The notes under the pieces: generated by a model | The model's input: only the letters and a program-made list of their open reading frames with translations | Databases searched by the model: none | What the model was told of the DNA's origin: nothing | Shown here: positions 14,872 through 35,232 of the stretch, one piece after another | How positions within the stretch are numbered: the first letter of the stretch is position 1 | How the letters are laid out: the number at the start of each line of letters is the position of its first letter | NCBI GenBank assembly: GCA_016875215.1 | Contig: VGRX01000014.1 | Location: forward strand, 1-36,034 | From: Deltaproteobacteria bacterium | GTDB taxonomy: Bacteria > Myxococcota_A > UBA9042 > CAIXZC01 | DNA length: 36,034 bases | Reading direction: 5' to 3' | Translations under genes and position numbers: made by a program

Positions 14872-14970
14872 CCCGGCCCTCAACCTTTTCCACCCGCTCC
14901 CCATCCCGGCCCTCAACCCTTTCCACCCGCTCCCCATCCCGGCCCTCAACCTTTTCCACCCGCTCCCCAT
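14872..14970. repeat. 33-bp tandem repeat, three copies (VNTR), in the 335-base gap 14663-14997
   Basis: Three units at 14872-14904, 14905-14937 and 14938-14970 differ at a single base (a T/C change in the middle unit). The unit contains CTCAACC, TTTTCCACCC and GCTCCCCAT. The gap separates convergent genes, the DUF2723 protein and the second Mla ATPase. The minus-strand translation would be an 11-residue charged repeat, but no gene with a credible start covers it. No spacers are present, so this is not a CRISPR. The remaining 209 bases (14663-14871) show nothing else that is clear, apart from an isolated TTGACA. Confidence 0.88.
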
Positions 14971-14997
14971 CCCGGGCTGAGACGACGTTGTCCTGAG

Positions 14998-15750
14998 TCA
15001 GATCTCCCCTTCCACGCGGGCATGGACGAACTGGTCGAGCACGGGGTCGGCGGAATGGAAGAAGCCGTCCACGCCCCCCTCGTAGCGGACCTTGCGGTCG
15101 AACAGGAATACGACCTCGTCGGCCAGTCTTCGGATGCTCTGGAGATCGTGCGAGATGACGAGCAGCGTGACTCCCAGCTCCTTGAGCCGGCGAACGTGTG
15201 CGTCGATCTCGAACGCGGCATAGGGATCGAGCCCGGTCGTCGGCTCGTCGAGGATGAGCGTCTCCGGCTCGAGCGCGAGCGCCCGGGCAAGGGAGACGAG
15301 CTTCTGCTCGCCTGCGGGGAGCTCGGGGGGCCGGGATTCGGCGAGGCGGGACAGCCCCATCCGATCGAGCTGGGCTCGGGCCAGCCCCTCTGCCGCGGCT
15401 GCCTTGACCCCCTTGTGGTACTTGACCACCAGGGCCACGTTTTCCGTCACGGTCATCGAGTCGAACAGGGTGGGATGCTGGAACACGTACACGCACCGGC
15501 GCCGAAGTCCGAGCAGTGCCTCCTCGTCCAGCACGTCCACCCGCAGGTCCTTGTACCAGACCTCGCCGGCATCGGGTTTCAGCAGGCCGACGAGGTGACG
15601 GACCAGCACCGACTTGCCCGTGCCGGACGGCCCGGCAACGAACGTGCAACGCCCTTCGGAAAGCTCGAGCGTGACACCGGCCAGGACCTGGTGCGCACCG
15701 AATGCCTTTGCGAGCCCGACGGTTCGGGCAACGGGGTGCGCGGCGGTCAT
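14998..15750 (-). CDS. MlaF-type ABC ATPase with a degenerate signature motif (ATPase B)
   Basis: 250 residues, an ATP-binding subunit of an Mla/Mce-type lipid transporter at the inner membrane. Walker A is GPSGTGKS (40-47), the Q-loop lies in VFQHPTLFD, Walker B with catalytic Glu169 reads LILDEPTTGLDP, and the switch His is in ISHDLQS. The signature is unusual: LPAGEQ (144-149) replaces LSGGQ/M, so Ser becomes Pro and the first Gly becomes Ala. The partner ATPase encoded at 17366-18223 has the reverse pattern. The start codon overlaps the stop of the upstream permease (ATGA), giving translational coupling. Confidence 0.9.
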   Translation of the reverse strand: MTAAHPVARTVGLAKAFGAHQVLAGVTLELSEGRCTFVAGPSGTGKSVLVRHLVGLLKPDAGEVWYKDLRVDVLDEEALLGLRRRCVYVFQHPTLFDSMTVTENVALVVKYHKGVKAAAAEGLARAQLDRMGLSRLAESRPPELPAGEQKLVSLARALALEPETLILDEPTTGLDPYAAFEIDAHVRRLKELGVTLLVISHDLQSIRRLADEVVFLFDRKVRYEGGVDGFFHSADPVLDQFVHARVEGEI

Positions 15751-16478
15751 GACAGGACCTCGCCGATGTAGGTGATGAGAGCATCCTCGACGATCACGAT
15801 GAACGAGGAAAGCACGACGGCCCGGGTCGTGGCTCGGCCGACCCCCTCGGAGCCCCCCGTTGCCAGGAAGCCGCACGCGCAGCTCACGAGGGGAACGGTG
15901 AACCCGAACACGAGCGCCTTGCAGATCCCCATGACCAGGTCGGCCGTGACCACGAAACGCAGCGACATGAAAGTGTCCGGGAGGATCGAGAAGCCGAGCC
16001 ACGCCACGCACATCCCGGAGAAGAACGCGATGGTCGTCCCCACGGCAGCGAGCCCGAGGGATGCCACGGACGTTGCAAACAGCCGAGGCAGCACGAGCAG
16101 CTCCACCGGATCCACGGAGCTCAGCTTCATCGCATCGACCTGGTCGCTGACCTGCATGGAGCCGATCTCCGCGGCCATCCCGGTCCCCACGCGGGTGGCC
16201 AGCAGCAGGCCGGCCATGATGGGCCCCATCTCGCGGGTCAACCCCTGCAGCGTGGCCGCACCGAGCGTCGAGTACTCCGGAAGGACCGCCTCCATGGTGG
16301 AGGCCAGCTCGTACACGCCGATCATGCCGATGAATGCCATCGTGATGCCCACGAACAGCAGGGAGCGGTTCCCGGTCTCGTAGACCTGGCGGAGCATCTC
16401 CCGACCGCCGAGCCGCATGCGCACCAGCGCCCACAGGCTGAGCGAGAGCATCTGTCCGATGGTGATCAGCAACGCCAT
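15747..16478 (-). CDS. MlaE/YrbE-type lipid-transport permease (permease B)
   Basis: 243 residues, polytopic, MlaE family. It would form the membrane channel of an Mla/Mce-type transporter. Typical segments are REMGPIMAGLLLATRVGTGMAAEIGSM and the coupling-helix region SDQVDAMKLSSVDPVELLVLPR, where family members have EQ-x-x-A-(L/M)...DP. GSEGVGRATTRAVV is the C-terminal family motif. The ATG at 16478 is chosen since AAAGGGA is close upstream and the N-terminal helix starts there. A longer frame from 16589 would add a non-family Gly/Glu-rich tail. It overlaps ATPase B by 4 bases and lies 114 bases after permease A. Confidence 0.9.
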   Translation of the reverse strand: MALLITIGQMLSLSLWALVRMRLGGREMLRQVYETGNRSLLFVGITMAFIGMIGVYELASTMEAVLPEYSTLGAATLQGLTREMGPIMAGLLLATRVGTGMAAEIGSMQVSDQVDAMKLSSVDPVELLVLPRLFATSVASLGLAAVGTTIAFFSGMCVAWLGFSILPDTFMSLRFVVTADLVMGICKALVFGFTVPLVSCACGFLATGGSEGVGRATTRAVVLSSFIVIVEDALITYIGEVLS

Positions 16479-16532
16479 GCTTCCCTTTCCCCCTGTCCCT
16501 TGCGCCTTCCCTGCGTCAACTGCCTCTGCCAA

Positions 16533-16550
16533 CTCAGCTCGGGAGCTGAG
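16533..16550. other. Hairpin in the 114-base gap between the two MlaE genes
   Basis: CTCAGCT (16533-16539) and AGCTGAG (16544-16550) form a perfect 7-bp stem with a 4-base loop (8 bp with a 2-base loop). No T run follows on the minus strand, so it is not a clear terminator. It could affect mRNA processing or the ratio of the two permease/ATPase pairs. The rest of the gap is pyrimidine-rich and empty. Confidence 0.45.
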
Positions 16551-16592
16551 CACTCTCCCACACGGACCTTCCTCTTCCCTTTCCCCCACCCC

Positions 16593-17369
16593 CTATATCT
16601 GGAACCACACCCACGTGATCACGTAGTCCGCGATGAAGATGCCCAGCGCGGTCGTGACCACGCAACCGTTCACGGCCCGCCCTACCCCCTGGGCACCGCC
16701 CGTCACGGTGAGCCCGTAGTTGCTGCTCACCGTGGAGATCACGCCTCCGAACGCGGCAGCCTTGCACAGTCCGACCACGAAGTCGTCGAGCAGATCCACT
16801 TCCATGAGTCCGGCCAGGTAGGTGCGCCAGTCGATGTCCAGCAGCCAGTGGCACGCCATCGCCCCACCGACCAGGCCGCACAGGTCGCCGACCACGGTGA
16901 GCAGCACCAGCGACGTCACGATGGCGATGAAGCGGGGGGCGACGAGGAACCGTATGGGGTCGATGGCCAGCGCCCGGAGCGCCTCGACCTGCTCCGAGAT
17001 CACCATGTTGCCCAGCTCCGCTGCAGCGTTCGCTCCGACACGGCCGGAAAACATGAGGCCGATGAGCGACGGTCCGAGCTCGGAAAGCACGGCCAGCCCG
17101 GCCCCGGCTCCCACGAAGCCTGTGGCACCGGTCTTGCGGACGTAGGTCATGCTCTGGAGCACCATGATCACGCCCACGAGCAGCGCGGTGAGCACGACGA
17201 TGGGCAGGGAGCGGACCCCGATGCGGTGGAGCTGTCGGAACAGCTCCTCCCGGTCGTATCGAGGGGGGAAGAGCGCCCGCAGCGTGCGGTAGAACATGAC
17301 GTTGAGCGATCCGACCCGTGCCAGCGAGTCCAGCAGTTCCCTGCCGAACCCGGCGAGGAGTGGCTTCAT
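16593..17369 (-). CDS. MlaE/YrbE-type lipid-transport permease (permease A)
   Basis: 258 residues, the closer of the two permeases to canonical MlaE. An amphipathic N-terminal helix precedes several membrane segments. The family motifs are GVIMVLQ, LGPSLIGLMFSGRVGANAAAELG, the coupling helix SEQVEALRALAIDPIRFLVAPR, and GGAQGVGRAVNGCVV. It overlaps the upstream ATPase gene by 4 bases (ATGA). Actinobacterial YrbEA/YrbEB pairs form heterodimeric permeases, and this gene with permease B looks analogous. No MlaD/Mce substrate-binding gene is in view, so the periplasmic partner must be encoded elsewhere or be absent. Confidence 0.93.
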   Translation of the reverse strand: MKPLLAGFGRELLDSLARVGSLNVMFYRTLRALFPPRYDREELFRQLHRIGVRSLPIVVLTALLVGVIMVLQSMTYVRKTGATGFVGAGAGLAVLSELGPSLIGLMFSGRVGANAAAELGNMVISEQVEALRALAIDPIRFLVAPRFIAIVTSLVLLTVVGDLCGLVGGAMACHWLLDIDWRTYLAGLMEVDLLDDFVVGLCKAAAFGGVISTVSSNYGLTVTGGAQGVGRAVNGCVVTTALGIFIADYVITWVWFQI

Positions 17370-18223
17370 GATACCCCCCCGCTCTTCCCGAGGACCGCGG
17401 CCGCTGCATCCCCGGGGGATGATCGGCCGGACCGTGCGGGTGGATCGTCGAGGTCGGGGTCGGCTTCCCCCGAGAGCGCGGCGGCCACGAACCGGCGGAC
17501 CTCGTCCGGTGCGCCGGTCATGAGCGCTGAGGTCGGGCCGTCGTACGCGACCCTTCCGCCAAAGACGGCCACGACCCTCGACGTGATCGGAAGCAGCCGG
17601 TCCAGGTCGTGAGTCGCCACGAGGACCAGGCTGCCCGAGGTCGATGCATAGTCCCTCAGCAGTGCCATGATCTTGGCCGAGTTGACGGGGTCCAGCCCCG
17701 CCACCGGATCATCGAAGACCGCTATTTCCGGGGCTGCGGCCATGACCCTGGCGATGGCCACCCTGCGCCGCATCCCGCCCGACAGCTCGGAAGGGAGCTT
17801 CGCTTCACTGCCGGAGAGGCCCACGCGCTCGAGCGCGGAACGGACCAGGAGGTCGGCTTCATCGGGCCGCATGCCGCGTGCATGCAGCAGGGGGAAGGCC
17901 ACGTTGTTCCAGACATCGAGATAGTCGAACAGGGCGAAGTTCTGGAACTGCAGACCGATCCGGGTCCGGCACTCGCGCAGGCGCCTCCTCCGAAGCAGCC
18001 CGACCGGCCGGCCGAACAGCTTGAGGTCGCCCCGGGCGGGCCAGGTGAGGGTGACGAGGCAACGGATGAGCTGGGTCTTTCCCGAGCCGCCGGGGCCGAT
18101 GAGCCCAACGACCTCACCGGGGTACAGGTCGAGCGAGACGTCCTTCAGGATGGGGCGGCCGCCGATCCGGTGCACGAGCCCCCGAACCGAGACGACCGGC
18201 TCTCCGATGCCTTCGCCGCGCAT
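17366..18223 (-). CDS. MlaF-type ABC ATPase with Asp in place of the catalytic Glu (ATPase A)
   Basis: 285 residues. Walker A is GPGGSGKT (43-50), the Q-loop lies in LQFQNFALFDYL, the signature LSGGM (147-151) is normal, and the switch His is in ATHDLDR. Walker B reads IAVFDDPVAGLDP, so position 172 is Asp where ABC ATPases have the catalytic Glu (MlaF of E. coli has DEP). A 40-residue C-terminal extension recalls the MlaF tail that reaches across the dimer. The ATG at 18223 has a GGGGAAGG site immediately before it; the spacing is short. The methylmalonyl-CoA mutase stop is 23 bases upstream, so the genes are probably co-transcribed. Confidence 0.92.
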   Translation of the reverse strand: MRGEGIGEPVVSVRGLVHRIGGRPILKDVSLDLYPGEVVGLIGPGGSGKTQLIRCLVTLTWPARGDLKLFGRPVGLLRRRRLRECRTRIGLQFQNFALFDYLDVWNNVAFPLLHARGMRPDEADLLVRSALERVGLSGSEAKLPSELSGGMRRRVAIARVMAAAPEIAVFDDPVAGLDPVNSAKIMALLRDYASTSGSLVLVATHDLDRLLPITSRVVAVFGGRVAYDGPTSALMTGAPDEVRRFVAAALSGEADPDLDDPPARSGRSSPGDAAAAVLGKSGGVS

Positions 18224-18246: not shown

Positions 18247-19914
18247 TCAAATCTCGATGATCTCTTCGAACCTGCCGAAGACCTCCTCCATGGCAGCGGA
18301 GATCTCGCCCAGGGTTGCCATGCGTCGGACCGCGTCGAGGATGTGCGGGACGAGATTGTCGCTCCCCCGGGCTGCCGTCGTGATGCGCTCCAGCGCTGCG
18401 TCGACGTCGGTCCGGCTGCGCTCGCTGCGAACCTGGGCGAGACGGGCCCGCTGGGTCTCCTCCGCTGCTGCTGTGACCTTCAAGAGCTGGCGCCGCGGCG
18501 GCTCGTCCTTCTGGAACTGGTTGACCCCGACGACCACGGCATCCTTCGCCTCGACCGACCGCTGGTAGCGATAGGAGGTGTCGGAGATCTGCTTCTTGAC
18601 GAAGCCTGACTCGATGGCCCTGAGCATGCCCCCCATGTCGTCGATGCGCCGGATGAGGGCCCCGGCCTTCTTCTCGATGGCATCGGTCAGCGCCTCGACG
18701 GCGTAGCTGCCTCCCAGCGGGTCGACGAAGTCGGCCACACCGCTCTCGTAGCCGATGATCTGCTGGGTTCGAAGTGCCACCGTGACGGCCTCCTCGGTGG
18801 GGAGGGAGAGCGCCTCGTCGAACGAGTTGGTGTGGAGAGACTGGGTACCGCCGAGCACGGCGGCCAGTGCCTGGAGCGTGACCCGCACCACGTTGTTGAG
18901 GGGCTGCTGGGCCGTAAGCGTGCAACCTGCGGTCTGGGTGTGGAACCTCAGCGGCCAGCTCTTGGGGCTCCTGGCCTGGAAGCGCTCCTTCATGATGCGG
19001 GCCCAGAGCCTGCGGGCCGCACGGAACTTGGCCACCTCCTCGATGAAGTTGTTGCTGACGCTGAAGAAGAAGGCAAGGCGTCCTGCGAACTCGTCGACGT
19101 CGAGCCCCTTCTTGATGGCAGCATCCACGTATGCGATGCCGTCGGCCAGCGTGAACGCAACCTCCTGGACCGCGTCGGCGCCGGCTTCCCGGATATGGTA
19201 TCCCGAGATGGAGATGGTGTTCCACTTCGGGATCTCCCTCGAGCAGAAATCGAAGATGTCCGTGATGATGCGCAGAGACGGTCCGGGCGGGTAGATGTAG
19301 GTCCCGCGGGCGACGTATTCCTTGAGCACGTCGTTCTGGATGGTACCGTTGAGCTGGCCCGGGGTGACTCCGTTCTCCTCGGCCACTGCGATGTACATGG
19401 AGAGGAGGGCAGCGGCCGTCGAGTTGATGGTCATGGAGGTGGAGACCTTGTCCAGCGGGATGCCGCCGAACAGGAGGCGCATGTCGGCCAGGGAATCGAT
19501 GGCCACGCCCACCTTCCCGACCTCACCCCGGGCGAGGGGGTGGTCCGAGTCGTAGCCCATCTGTGTGGGAAGGTCGAACGCCACCGAGAGCCCGGTCTGC
19601 CCCTGCCCGAGCAGATAGCGGTATCGGGCGTTGGATTCCTCGGCCGTTCCGAAGCCGGCATACTGGCGCATGGTCCAGTGCCGCCCCCGGAACATGTTGG
19701 CCTGCACGCCCCGCGTGAAGGGATATCGCCCCGGGAAGCCCAGCTTGCCTGCGTAGTCGAGCTCTCCGTCAGGGACGTAGAGGGGCAGCAGCTCCTCTCC
19801 GTCCGAAGCGGCAAAGGACTTGCGGCGGGGTGCGACCTTGGCCTCGCCCGGCTTCAGGGTCTTCTCAAGCCATTCCTGGTACTGCTGCTGCACCGTCGGT
19901 CTGTTGTCATCCAT
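18247..19914 (-). CDS. Methylmalonyl-CoA mutase catalytic (large/N-terminal) subunit
   Basis: 555 residues, the TIM-barrel catalytic chain without the C-terminal cobalamin-binding domain of full-length mutases (about 720). It interconverts methylmalonyl-CoA and succinyl-CoA with a B12-binding partner. Family motifs are [13 protein letters not shown] (substrate Tyr85), [10 protein letters not shown], the IQNDVLKEY segment, LRFHTQTAG (Arg323, carboxylate binding) and [14 protein letters not shown] (His361). The Tyr and Arg favour methylmalonyl-CoA over isobutyryl-CoA. AGAGGAG lies 9 bases before the ATG. It sits 13 bases after the diguanylate cyclase gene in a run of seven same-strand genes. 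The B12-binding subunit, epimerase and MeaB chaperone are not in the window. Confidence 0.96.
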
Positions 19915-31665: not shown

Positions 31666-32373
31666 TCACGGCGGTCCTCCGTTGTCCTGGCGCACGTCCG
31701 AGTCGATCCGGCCGTCCTTCAGGCGGACGAGGCGCGAGGCGGCATTCATGACCATGGGGTCATGCGTGGAGAACAGGAAAGTCAGCCCCTTTTCCCGGTT
31801 CAACCGTCGCATGAGCTTGAGCAACGCCGCACCGGTTTCGGAGTCGAGGTTCGCTGTGGGCTCGTCGGCCAGCACGATGACGGGCTCGCAAACCAGGGCA
31901 CGGGCGATGGCCACCCGCTGCTGTTGCCCACCGCTCATCTGCATGGGACGGCGGTGCGTCATTTCGGAAAGCCCCACGGCATCGAGCAACTCCTGCACCT
32001 TCTTCCGTCGGACCGGTCCGGGCTCCCCGCGAAGAATGAGGGGATACTCGACGTTCTCCCCCGCGGTCAGGACCGGGATGAGGTTGTAGGCCTGGAACAC
32101 GAATCCGATCTTCTCCAGGCGCAGGCGGGAGAGCTCTTTGCGCGAGAGACCTCCCAGGCGACGTCCCCCGACGGAGATGGTGCCCGAGGTCGGCTCGTCC
32201 AGCCCGCCGATCAGGTTGAACAGCGTGGTCTTTCCGGAACCCGAGGGCCCGGCGACCGCGGTGAATTCCCCTGGTTGGATGTCCAGGTCGATGCCCCGCA
32301 GCGCCTGGACCTCGATGTCGCCCATCTTGAAGACCCGGGTCACCTCTCTGACGGTCACGATCGGTTCAGACAT
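31666..32373 (-). CDS. LolD/MacB-type ABC ATPase
   Basis: 235 residues, an ATP-binding subunit of the FtsX-permease ABC class, whose members drive lipoprotein release or outer-membrane extrusion. Walker A is GPSGSGKTT, the Q-loop lies in FVFQAYNLIP, the signature is MSGGQQQRVAIARAL, Walker B is IVLADEPTANLDS, and the switch His is in FSTHDP. All motifs are intact. The ATG at 32373 overlaps the permease stop by 8 bases, and its own stop overlaps the alternative GTG of the barrel gene, so all are co-transcribed. Confidence 0.94.
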   Translation of the reverse strand: MSEPIVTVREVTRVFKMGDIEVQALRGIDLDIQPGEFTAVAGPSGSGKTTLFNLIGGLDEPTSGTISVGGRRLGGLSRKELSRLRLEKIGFVFQAYNLIPVLTAGENVEYPLILRGEPGPVRRKKVQELLDAVGLSEMTHRRPMQMSGGQQQRVAIARALVCEPVIVLADEPTANLDSETGAALLKLMRRLNREKGLTFLFSTHDPMVMNAASRLVRLKDGRIDSDVRQDNGGPP

Positions 32374-33652
32374 TTTCGCACCTGATGGCAGCAAGGGCCT
32401 TCATGCGGGCGACCCGCACGGCAGGCCATAGAGCGAACAGCAGGATACCGGCCAGCACCACGACGGTGGGCTCGACAAACACCTTGAGACTTGCCGACCC
32501 TCTGTACACGTTCTCGATGAACATCCCGTTGAACTCGAAGCCGTCCACGATGAAGCTCAAGTCGAGTCCCCAGACCGTGAGATAGGCGACGCAGAGGCCG
32601 CCCACGACAAGCCCGATGGCCATGGCCAGCAGGCCGATGAGGAGCGCCTCGCACATGATGCCGGCAAACAGGCTGCGGCCTCGGGCGCCCAGCGCAAGCT
32701 GCACGCCGAACTCGCGCTGCCGCTCGAACACGACCATGAACAGGGTCGTGAGGATTCCGGCGGACAGGATGGTGAGCATGAGGAGGTAGAGCAGGCCGTT
32801 CCAACTGTCGACCATGGCGAACATCTGGGCGATTTCGGGGCTCACGTCGTACCAGGCGAGCACTTCGGTCGAGTCCAGCCCCTGGGCAGCAATGCGCTGT
32901 CGAATGTCGTCGACGACCGGGGCGATGGCGCGGGAATCGTGGACCATGACCGAGATCTCGTGGACCGTGTCATCGGCACCGGTGGCCTCCTGGAAATCCT
33001 TCAGGGCGACCATGACCATCTGCGAGTCAAAGGCATCGGTATCGGTCTGGATGATCCCGGTGACGACGAAGGCGAGAGCCACGGTAGCCCCCTGGAACCC
33101 GGCGCAGTCGAGGCGGACCCTGGAGCCGATTCCGACCTTGAGCTGACGGGCGAGCTTGGCTCCAAGGAGGATCCCCTTCCGCTGCCGGAAGCGCTCCGGT
33201 GCATCCGGTTCGAGCGCCTCCGGGGGGGGGACGACGAACCCGCCGGCGACGAGCTTCTCCGGCAACGCGCTGAAGTGGCGTTCCCGCTCCGGATCCACGG
33301 CCAGGACCCGCACCACCCGCACGGTGCTGGACAGGCTGGACCGGATGCTGCCCGAGAACATGAGGCGGGGGCTTGCGGCCTTCACTCCGGGGGTGGACTC
33401 AATGGCTTCGAGCACCTTGGAGGCAGATGGGATGACGAGCTGGGTGCTCTGCCGCTCCCGGTATTCGGGGTGGTGGAGTTGAATGTGGCCCATGCTCGAA
33501 CGGGCGAGCTGGTCCACGAACATGTCGATGAACCCTTCGGTGAACGACACCATGGTGATGAGGACGGCCAGGCCGAGGCTGATGGCCGCCACCGTGAGCA
33601 ATGTCCTTCGGCGGTTGCGCCACAGGTTTCTCCACGCCATGATCAGGAGCAT
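32366..33652 (-). CDS. FtsX/LolC/LolE-type ABC permease (second permease)
   Basis: 428 residues. A first membrane helix follows MAWRNLWRNRRRTLLTVAAIS, the typical N-terminus of MacB/LolCE permeases. A periplasmic domain runs from about residue 40 to 270, and three C-terminal helices include FERQREFGVQLALGARGRSL, the family coupling motif. ATG at 33652 is chosen because GAGG lies 8 bases upstream; GTG at 33661 and ATG at 33640 are other options. It is 56 bases after the first permease and overlaps the ATPase by 8 bases. The pair of unlike permeases parallels LolC and LolE, which form a heterodimer. Confidence 0.9.
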   Translation of the reverse strand: MLLIMAWRNLWRNRRRTLLTVAAISLGLAVLITMVSFTEGFIDMFVDQLARSSMGHIQLHHPEYRERQSTQLVIPSASKVLEAIESTPGVKAASPRLMFSGSIRSSLSSTVRVVRVLAVDPERERHFSALPEKLVAGGFVVPPPEALEPDAPERFRQRKGILLGAKLARQLKVGIGSRVRLDCAGFQGATVALAFVVTGIIQTDTDAFDSQMVMVALKDFQEATGADDTVHEISVMVHDSRAIAPVVDDIRQRIAAQGLDSTEVLAWYDVSPEIAQMFAMVDSWNGLLYLLMLTILSAGILTTLFMVVFERQREFGVQLALGARGRSLFAGIMCEALLIGLLAMAIGLVVGGLCVAYLTVWGLDLSFIVDGFEFNGMFIENVYRGSASLKVFVEPTVVVLAGILLFALWPAVRVARMKALAAIRCENV

Positions 33653-33708
33653 GCTGGGCACCTCGGCCGGTTCTTGGGAGCGCGCTCGTCGTTCGCCATT
33701 GCACCCTC

Positions 33709-35232
33709 CTACACGAATCGGATGGCATCGACCGGGCGCAGGCGGTGGATGCGCAGGGCCGGGTAGAGGGAGCCGAGCACCGCATAGGCCACTACGGTGC
33801 CCACCGAGAAGACTATCCCGTAGAGGGTGAGCTCGGTGTAGTAGACCGTGCTCAGCACCACGCCGGTGATCGAGACTTCGCCCATTCCCAGGTCATATCC
33901 GTTGACGGAGAAGTACCAGTTGAACGCCTCGCCGATCCCTGTGCCGACGGCACCGGACAGCAGGGCAAGGATCACCATCTCCAGCACGAGCCCGCCCGCG
34001 ATGCGGCCGGGGGATTCTCCCACGGCCATGCGCACGCCGAATTCCCGGGTGCGCTCCATGACCGACATGGTGACCACGTTGGCCAGGATGACGCCGACGA
34101 TCATGATGAGAAGCGCCAGCGTCACGAGGAGGCTGCCCTGGTCGAGCTTGACGTAGACATCGAGCTCGGGTGACAGCTTGCGCCAGGACAGGGCCGACAG
34201 CCCGATGCCGGCCGAATCCAGCGCCCGTCCCAACTCCTCGGCCACTTCCGATGCACCTTCGAGATCGTCGATGGCGACGACCACGGCCGATGCGCCGCCA
34301 TTGGTCTCCAGGCCGGCGGAGAGCTTGTCGATGTGGGTCAGCGCAAAGGTGCGGTTGATTTCTAGGCTGCCGGTCTTGACCAGGCCGACGACCTTGTAGA
34401 GCGAGGCAAACGCCCGGCCCCGGGCGGTTCCGGTGGTGAGCGCTACCCGGTCACCCACTCCCACGTCGAGCAGCATGGCCAGGCCGGTACCCAGCACGAT
34501 CTCGCCCATGTAGGGATTGTCTGCATGGGGGTCAGTCGATGCCAGGAAGCGGGCGGGCGGGCAGTAGTCGCTGAACCGGTCGGCACAGTCGGCATCGTCG
34601 CACAGGTCGTCCCCGTCGGGGCAGCGCCCCTTGCAGACGGTCGCACCAGCCTCGTCGCATCGTTCGTCCAGAGGGGGCAGGGTCGGGCAGAGGGACTCGC
34701 AATCTGCGGAATCGGCGTAGATTTCGGCCCGGGCCGCTCGGCACCCTCGCAGGCAGCGCTGGTCAGGCTCGTCTGCGACCAGCGACGACTCCAGCGTGCT
34801 GACCTTCCGCTCGTCGTCGGGACGGATTCCGACCACGAACGCTCCTTCGGAGGTCATCCCCTTCCACGACGAGAGGTTGTCCTCGTCCGGGGGGTCAGGG
34901 ACCTTCTTGCTCAGCAGACCGCCCGTCTGGAGCCTGGGGGCGAACCCGAGCACGCCGGGCATGTCCTGCAGCACCGGAACGAGCGCTTTCAGATCGGCCC
35001 CCGGAATCTGGTGCTCCAGGTCGGGCTCGTCGTGATACCCGGGATGCTGCACCTGGAGGTGCCCGAGGAAGGAATCCGTGGCACCGCGGATCATCTGGGT
35101 GTGCATGCCGTCGCCCATTCCCACGAACAGGATCATGACCGCCACGGAGAACACCATGACCAGCCCGGTCAGCACCGTCCGGCGCCGGTTGCGCCAGAGG
35201 TCCCGCCAGCACAGTGCGAGGAAGTTTTTCAT
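33709..35232 (-). CDS. FtsX/LolC/LolE-type ABC permease with a Cys-rich periplasmic insert (first permease)
   Basis: 507 residues, about 80 longer than its partner. The N-terminus MKNFLALCWRDLWRNRRRTVL and the C-terminal MERTREFGVRMAVGESPGRI are family motifs. The extra length is partly an insert at about residues 160-224 with ten cysteines (CLRGC, CESLC, CKGRC, CDDADC and others) rich in Asp. Such spacing suggests disulfides or metal binding in the periplasm. The upstream gene is the lipoprotein-sorting protein, 84 bases away. The insert is not present in LolC/LolE of E. coli. Confidence 0.88.
   Translation of the reverse strand: MKNFLALCWRDLWRNRRRTVLTGLVMVFSVAVMILFVGMGDGMHTQMIRGATDSFLGHLQVQHPGYHDEPDLEHQIPGADLKALVPVLQDMPGVLGFAPRLQTGGLLSKKVPDPPDEDNLSSWKGMTSEGAFVVGIRPDDERKVSTLESSLVADEPDQRCLRGCRAARAEIYADSADCESLCPTLPPLDERCDEAGATVCKGRCPDGDDLCDDADCADRFSDYCPPARFLASTDPHADNPYMGEIVLGTGLAMLLDVGVGDRVALTTGTARGRAFASLYKVVGLVKTGSLEINRTFALTHIDKLSAGLETNGGASAVVVAIDDLEGASEVAEELGRALDSAGIGLSALSWRKLSPELDVYVKLDQGSLLVTLALLIMIVGVILANVVTMSVMERTREFGVRMAVGESPGRIAGGLVLEMVILALLSGAVGTGIGEAFNWYFSVNGYDLGMGEVSITGVVLSTVYYTELTLYGIVFSVGTVVAYAVLGSLYPALRIHRLRPVDAIRFV

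Follow-up and report, generated by a model that had tools for sequence, protein, structure and literature searches.

Two unlike ATPases with complementary ATP-site defects suggest an asymmetric MCE/Mla-type lipid transporter in a deltaproteobacterium

In diderm bacteria, MCE transporters carry lipids between the two membranes; which way the Mla system moves them, and how transport is energised, is debated. The E. coli Mla complex has the composition MlaF2E2D6B2, with two copies of one ATPase and one permease (PMC7790496), and mycobacterial MceG is a homodimer beneath a YrbE1A/B heterodimer (PMC9882608). A preliminary description of the locus treated here had set it against a homodimeric MlaF and an ATPase shared among Mce systems, correctly according to both papers. 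In ABC proteins, each ATP site is shared between two subunits: one supplies the Walker A and B motifs and the H-loop, and its partner supplies the signature (PMC12038006). Heterodimeric exporters can carry one consensus and one degenerate site; nucleotide at the degenerate site keeps the nucleotide-binding domains (NBDs) in contact, and the consensus site hydrolyses (PMC5216877). In the exporter MsRv1273c/72c, Asp and Gln stand at the positions of the catalytic Glu and the H-loop His (PMC12038006).

The window, the whole 36,034-nucleotide stretch of DNA analysed, holds a cassette of four genes, all on the minus strand, in the order ATPase A, MlaE permease A, MlaE permease B and ATPase B. The ranges first reported for the ATPases (17366-18223 and 14998-15750) are exact open reading frames; their minus-strand orientation had gone unstated. 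The genes and their ATP-site motifs are as follows.

17366..18223, minus strand: ATPase A, MlaF-like, ORF of 285 aa (PF00005, E 9e-28; A clade), would-be signature donor to the working site
18074..18097, minus strand: ATPase A Walker A GPGGSGKT, intact (residues 43-50)
17771..17785, minus strand: ATPase A signature LSGGM, intact (residues 147-151)
17705..17716, minus strand: ATPase A Walker B FDDP, with Asp172 instead of the catalytic Glu (residues 170-173)
17606..17614, minus strand: ATPase A H-loop THD, His kept, where many relatives have Ser, Asn, Gln or Thr (residues 204-206)
16593..17369, minus strand: permease A, MlaE family (PF02405, E 5e-64; gene junction; permease A clade)
15747..16478, minus strand: permease B, MlaE family, start ATG at 16478 or GTG at 16589 (PF02405, E 1e-55; gene junction; clade)
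14998..15750, minus strand: ATPase B, MlaF-like, ORF of 250 aa (PF00005, E 8e-27; B clade), would-be catalytic subunit of the working site
15610..15633, minus strand: ATPase B Walker A GPSGTGKS, intact (residues 40-47)
15307..15321, minus strand: ATPase B degenerate signature LPAGE, LPAGEQ from residue 144 (residues 144-148)
15241..15252, minus strand: ATPase B Walker B LDEP, catalytic Glu present (residues 167-170)
15145..15153, minus strand: ATPase B H-loop SHD, intact (residues 200-202)

The stop of ATPase A and the start of permease A share a 4-nt ATGA overlap, as do the stop of permease B and the start of ATPase B, and these overlaps suggest matched synthesis. A methylmalonyl-CoA mutase gene (18247-19914, also minus strand) lies directly upstream, with 23 bp between its end and ATPase A, and possibly shares a transcript with it.

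The two ATPases are 33% identical, and so are the two permeases. Translation bears out the motifs first reported, namely LSGGM with Asp172 for Glu in FDDP in ATPase A, and LDEP with its Glu and LPAGEQ in place of the signature in ATPase B, at residues 167 and 144. The presence of two unlike MlaE permeases also holds, as both proteins encoded between the ATPase genes match PF02405 far above the cut-off. Among solved structures, MlaF is one of the nearest ATPases, the lowest E values being about 1e-42 (A) and 1e-35 (B), and a few peptide or amino-acid importer ATPases match A and B equally well or better. For the permeases, MlaE is the nearest solved structure, followed by YrbE1A/B.

Like canonical MlaFE, the cassette encodes an MlaE-family permease and an MlaF-type ATPase side by side, but where MlaFE has one kind of ATPase forming two equivalent canonical ATP sites, the cassette has unlike ATPases whose defects are complementary. 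Its resemblance to E. coli MlaFEDB, an MCE-type (type VIII) ABC transporter, covers MlaE-family permeases, MlaF-like ATPases and, in the operons of relatives, an MCE protein, whereas the presence of two kinds of ATPase and of permease sets it apart. Mce1 (YrbE1A/YrbE1B-MceG) offers a heterodimeric MlaE-family permease under an MCE assembly (PMC9882608), an arrangement that is predicted here; Mce1, however, has a MceG homodimer and six different MCE proteins, and the cassette type has one. The Veillonella minimal MlaEFD transenvelope system shares an Mla core without MlaA and a long MCE protein, but has one permease and one ATPase (PMC10665443). In the DppABCDF peptide importer, two different permeases and two different ATPases are likewise encoded together, but in E. 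coli the hydrolysis motifs remain functional in DppD as well as in DppF (PMC12136057), the permease family is unrelated, and a binding protein takes the place of the MCE protein.

Loss of the catalytic residue in one NBD and of the signature in the other, the hallmark of ABC proteins with a degenerate site, is present in the window. TM287/288, BmrCD and MsRv1273c/72c show the same combination of a consensus and a degenerate site, with Asp in place of Glu and loss of the H-loop His on one side and a deviant signature on the partner (PMC5216877, PMC12038006). In contrast to the fused TMD-NBD chains and unrelated membrane domain of these exporters, the window has separate subunits, with MlaE-family permeases of the MCE type. 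Heterodimeric exporters with one degenerate site are the closest working analogy, and MlaF and MceG, both homodimers, are the nearest characterised proteins by descent.

A motif census of relatives indicates how general the pattern is. After duplicate removal it comprises 84 A-type and 96 B-type ATPases, with 64 ATPases from single-permease MlaF loci as controls; the sequences are related, so these counts are not independent trials, and the count before duplicate removal gave the same picture. The profiles that separated A from B contain the motif columns, but trees built without those columns yield the same split. The catalytic Glu and the H-loop His occur together in none of the 84 A-type proteins, of which 83 have an SGG signature and the remaining one AGG. 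Asp occupies the catalytic position in 59 and Glu in the other 25, all 25 Glu carriers being devoid of the H-loop His, and this His is gone, additionally or instead, in 43. Loss of this His, and not of the Glu, constitutes the A lesion in many relatives; this point, the MCE partner and the conservation all go beyond the preliminary description. Every B-type protein has both Glu and His (96/96) and none has SGG (0/96), and 62 of the 64 controls are fully canonical. The complementary-defect pair noticed in the window accordingly recurs in both sets, which come from two phyla, without a single departure from the pattern at the decisive positions, and conservation on this scale rules out chance or an annotation artefact. 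Walker A (GK[ST]) is kept in 80 of 81 readable A-type and all 96 B-type sequences, suggesting that nucleotide binding is constrained even at the degenerate site. The Q-loop and D-loop are kept in both types alike.

These data very probably reflect a transporter of the MCE/Mla type in which ATPases A and B form an obligate heterodimer on a heterodimeric permease, with one ATP site that hydrolyses and one that only binds. In this proposal, the four genes would form an inner-membrane ABC core in which the two permeases pair with each other, as do the two ATPases. Site 1, composed of Walker A and B of ATPase A and the signature of ATPase B, would be degenerate and would not hydrolyse at a useful rate; since it keeps Walker A, it probably binds ATP. 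Site 2, composed of Walker A, Walker B and the H-loop of ATPase B and the signature of ATPase A, would be canonical and hydrolyse ATP. Probably one ATP would be used per cycle, as in TM287/288-type exporters, and an MCE (MlaD-like) protein would provide the periplasmic part. Heterodimer assembly, one-site catalysis, the lipid substrate and the MCE partnership in this genome are all predictions from sequence.

The MCE (MlaD) gene is the last of the operon in most relatives, and in the window's genome no MCE gene adjoins the cassette. Another contig, C433, unlinked to the cassette, carries a lone MCE gene (L006:2423-3631, plus strand; PF02470, E 4.5e-15) whose product has a single MlaD domain and a long C-terminal region, and this is probably the partner of the system. 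The same genome also holds a canonical MlaE-MlaF-MCE set (contig C22) and one MlaC homologue on a contig other than that of the cassette (contig C58, E 4.5e-36). MlaC and MlaA both belong to the six-component Mla system of Proteobacteria; a search for MlaA gave no match in this genome, which is about 94% complete.

Two separate transporters, an A-A homodimer on permease A and a B-B homodimer on permease B, would also account for two unlike ATPases and permeases. The gene arrangement of one family, f5, speaks for this reading. There the cassette is split into separate loci, with ATPase A beside permease A in most, permease B on its own behind unrelated genes, and ATPase B with the MCE gene. The linkage of A with permease A and of B with MCE could suggest separate sub-assemblies and so count against a heterodimer. 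However, permease B and ATPase B are unlinked to each other in f5, and all parts persist with intact motifs in the genomes examined. The motif census argues further against homodimers, since in none of the 84 A sequences would an A-A dimer possess a site that combines Glu and His, and in none of the 96 B sequences would a B-B dimer possess an intact signature.

Co-occurrence bears on the same point. The preliminary description had proposed that relatives of either ATPase found alone with one permease and the same changes would undo the heterodimer idea, and such cases were sought in 12 genomes, several picked because A had not been seen beside B. All 12 hold one outstanding A-type ATPase with the A lesion, scoring 312-372 bits, and the next best match per genome scores 241-269 bits; A and B are found together in every one of them. 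Two loci of the window's own family (L038, L040), in which draft contigs end inside the cassette, were left out of this judgement. Taken together, these observations make two independent transporters very improbable. In several f5 genomes, the lone permease B gene (L049:4175-4984, plus strand; also L041, L079 and L044) lies beside PDZ/protease-like and PEGA-like genes in a shared order.

A second alternative attributes the odd motifs to drift in a decaying or regulatory ATPase, such that one ATPase powers the pump and the other serves as a scaffold. Many of the substitutions are indeed lineage specific, and the A tree has long branches. B signatures read GDG, GPS or PAG in some lineages and SYG or SFG in others, and A lesions are Glu to Asp and/or His to Ser, Asn, Gln or Thr, varying between the two phyla and inside the A clade. 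Yet Walker A, the Q-loop and the D-loop are kept in both ATPases, and each subunit retains exactly its own exclusive half of a working site. Because it lacks a signature, B alone would be unable to complete a site. With the motif columns left out, the A tree requires at least 8 changes in the combined Glu/His state, and none of the sampled A proteins carries the two residues together. Given that an ABC site is built from two subunits, all the lesions observed map to one composite site, and the other is left intact. The variety of the lesions, together with the lack of any A with both residues, looks like continued selection for a non-hydrolysing site rather than one frozen accident. We therefore give drift little credence. 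The pairing of a working with a dead ATP site seems to be selected and not accidental, as the arrangement recurs throughout two bacterial groups.

It is least probable, and barely so at all, that both sites of an A-B heterodimer hydrolyse, with Asp and the GDG, SYG and PAG signatures as functional substitutes; Asp is a conservative replacement that can leave some activity at the catalytic Glu position, and 41 of 62 A-type proteins of the window's phylum retain the H-loop His, but this His is lost in 43 of the 84 overall. Moreover, Asp for Glu, Gln for His and a deviant signature mark the impaired site of TM287/288 and MsRv1273c/72c (PMC5216877, PMC12038006).

The cassette type is widely distributed. 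Tandem permease pairs turned up in a search of 90 relatives, and when their surroundings were fetched and profiled, the order ATPase A, permease A, permease B, ATPase B, MCE appeared in many. Among the matches listed, named orthologs above 45% permease B identity belong to Myxococcales and 'Deltaproteobacteria' MAGs, and the cassette is found across the window's phylum, which these names make most likely Myxococcota. A Bdellovibrionales MAG has the order ATPase A, ATPase B, permease A, permease B, MCE, and a survey of Bdellovibrionota found this block in nearly all loci examined. In trees without motif columns, A forms one clade spanning both phyla (support 99/93), as does B (100/98), and the permease clades across both phyla have supports of 98/95 and 100/96. 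Single clades for A, B and the permeases over both phyla imply that the pair is old or was transferred as a unit.

Outside these groups, an A-profile search of ten genomes of other lineages gave a best score of 295 bits, compared with 312-372 for true A, with motifs inspected for some. In the phylum to which a Syntrophaceae MAG belongs (297 genomes), the best 30 A-profile matches all have canonical SGG, Glu and His. Because only sequences of the window's phylum went into the A profile, these searches of other lineages could miss a diverged A of the Bdellovibrionota kind. A literature search, which lacked subscription papers, found no paper on an asymmetric Mla/Mce ATPase pair, and an earlier description is possible.

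A broader view is that the cassette represents an ancient MCE branch of Myxococcota and Bdellovibrionota with an obligately asymmetric engine of one hydrolysis per cycle, that asymmetry arose more than once among MlaF-type ATPases, and that it may go with a direction or lipid unlike that of homodimeric MlaFE. We hold this only tentatively, at somewhat less than even likelihood. More than one origin is suggested by a single ORF with two fused MlaF-type NBDs, found in one sub-clade (L361:5258-6838, plus strand), in which NBD1 has LSGGM and DDP and NBD2 has ISNGQ and DEP, the same complementary pattern in one chain.

The characterised MCE members compared here have identical ATPases, and a conserved member with one dead and one live site would be a natural probe of the role of each ATP site. 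It would also allow one to ask whether asymmetry sets the direction of transport, and it would extend the degenerate-site design from fused exporters to an MCE system with separate subunits.

Other variants were seen among the relatives. A second ORF with two fused MlaF-type NBDs has a canonical NBD1 and an NBD2 with ISNGQ (L360:6749-8476, plus strand). An MlaF-like ATPase with LSGGM, DDP and THN (L362:5907-6896, plus strand) lies in a 10.3-Mb single-contig genome with no second such ATPase nearby. Lone odd motifs are rare; two single-ATPase MlaF-type proteins have Ser for the Walker B Glu (L259, about 6796) and an LSVGM signature (L216, about 6768).

Two further features of the window lie outside the cassette. 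Just downstream of ATPase B, at 14872-14975, a 33-bp unit is repeated in tandem (3.2 copies, 97% matches), at the position where the MCE gene sits in most relatives. MacB/FtsX-like permeases with an ABC ATPase (31666-32394) occupy 31666-35232 on the minus strand and form a second, unrelated ABC system.
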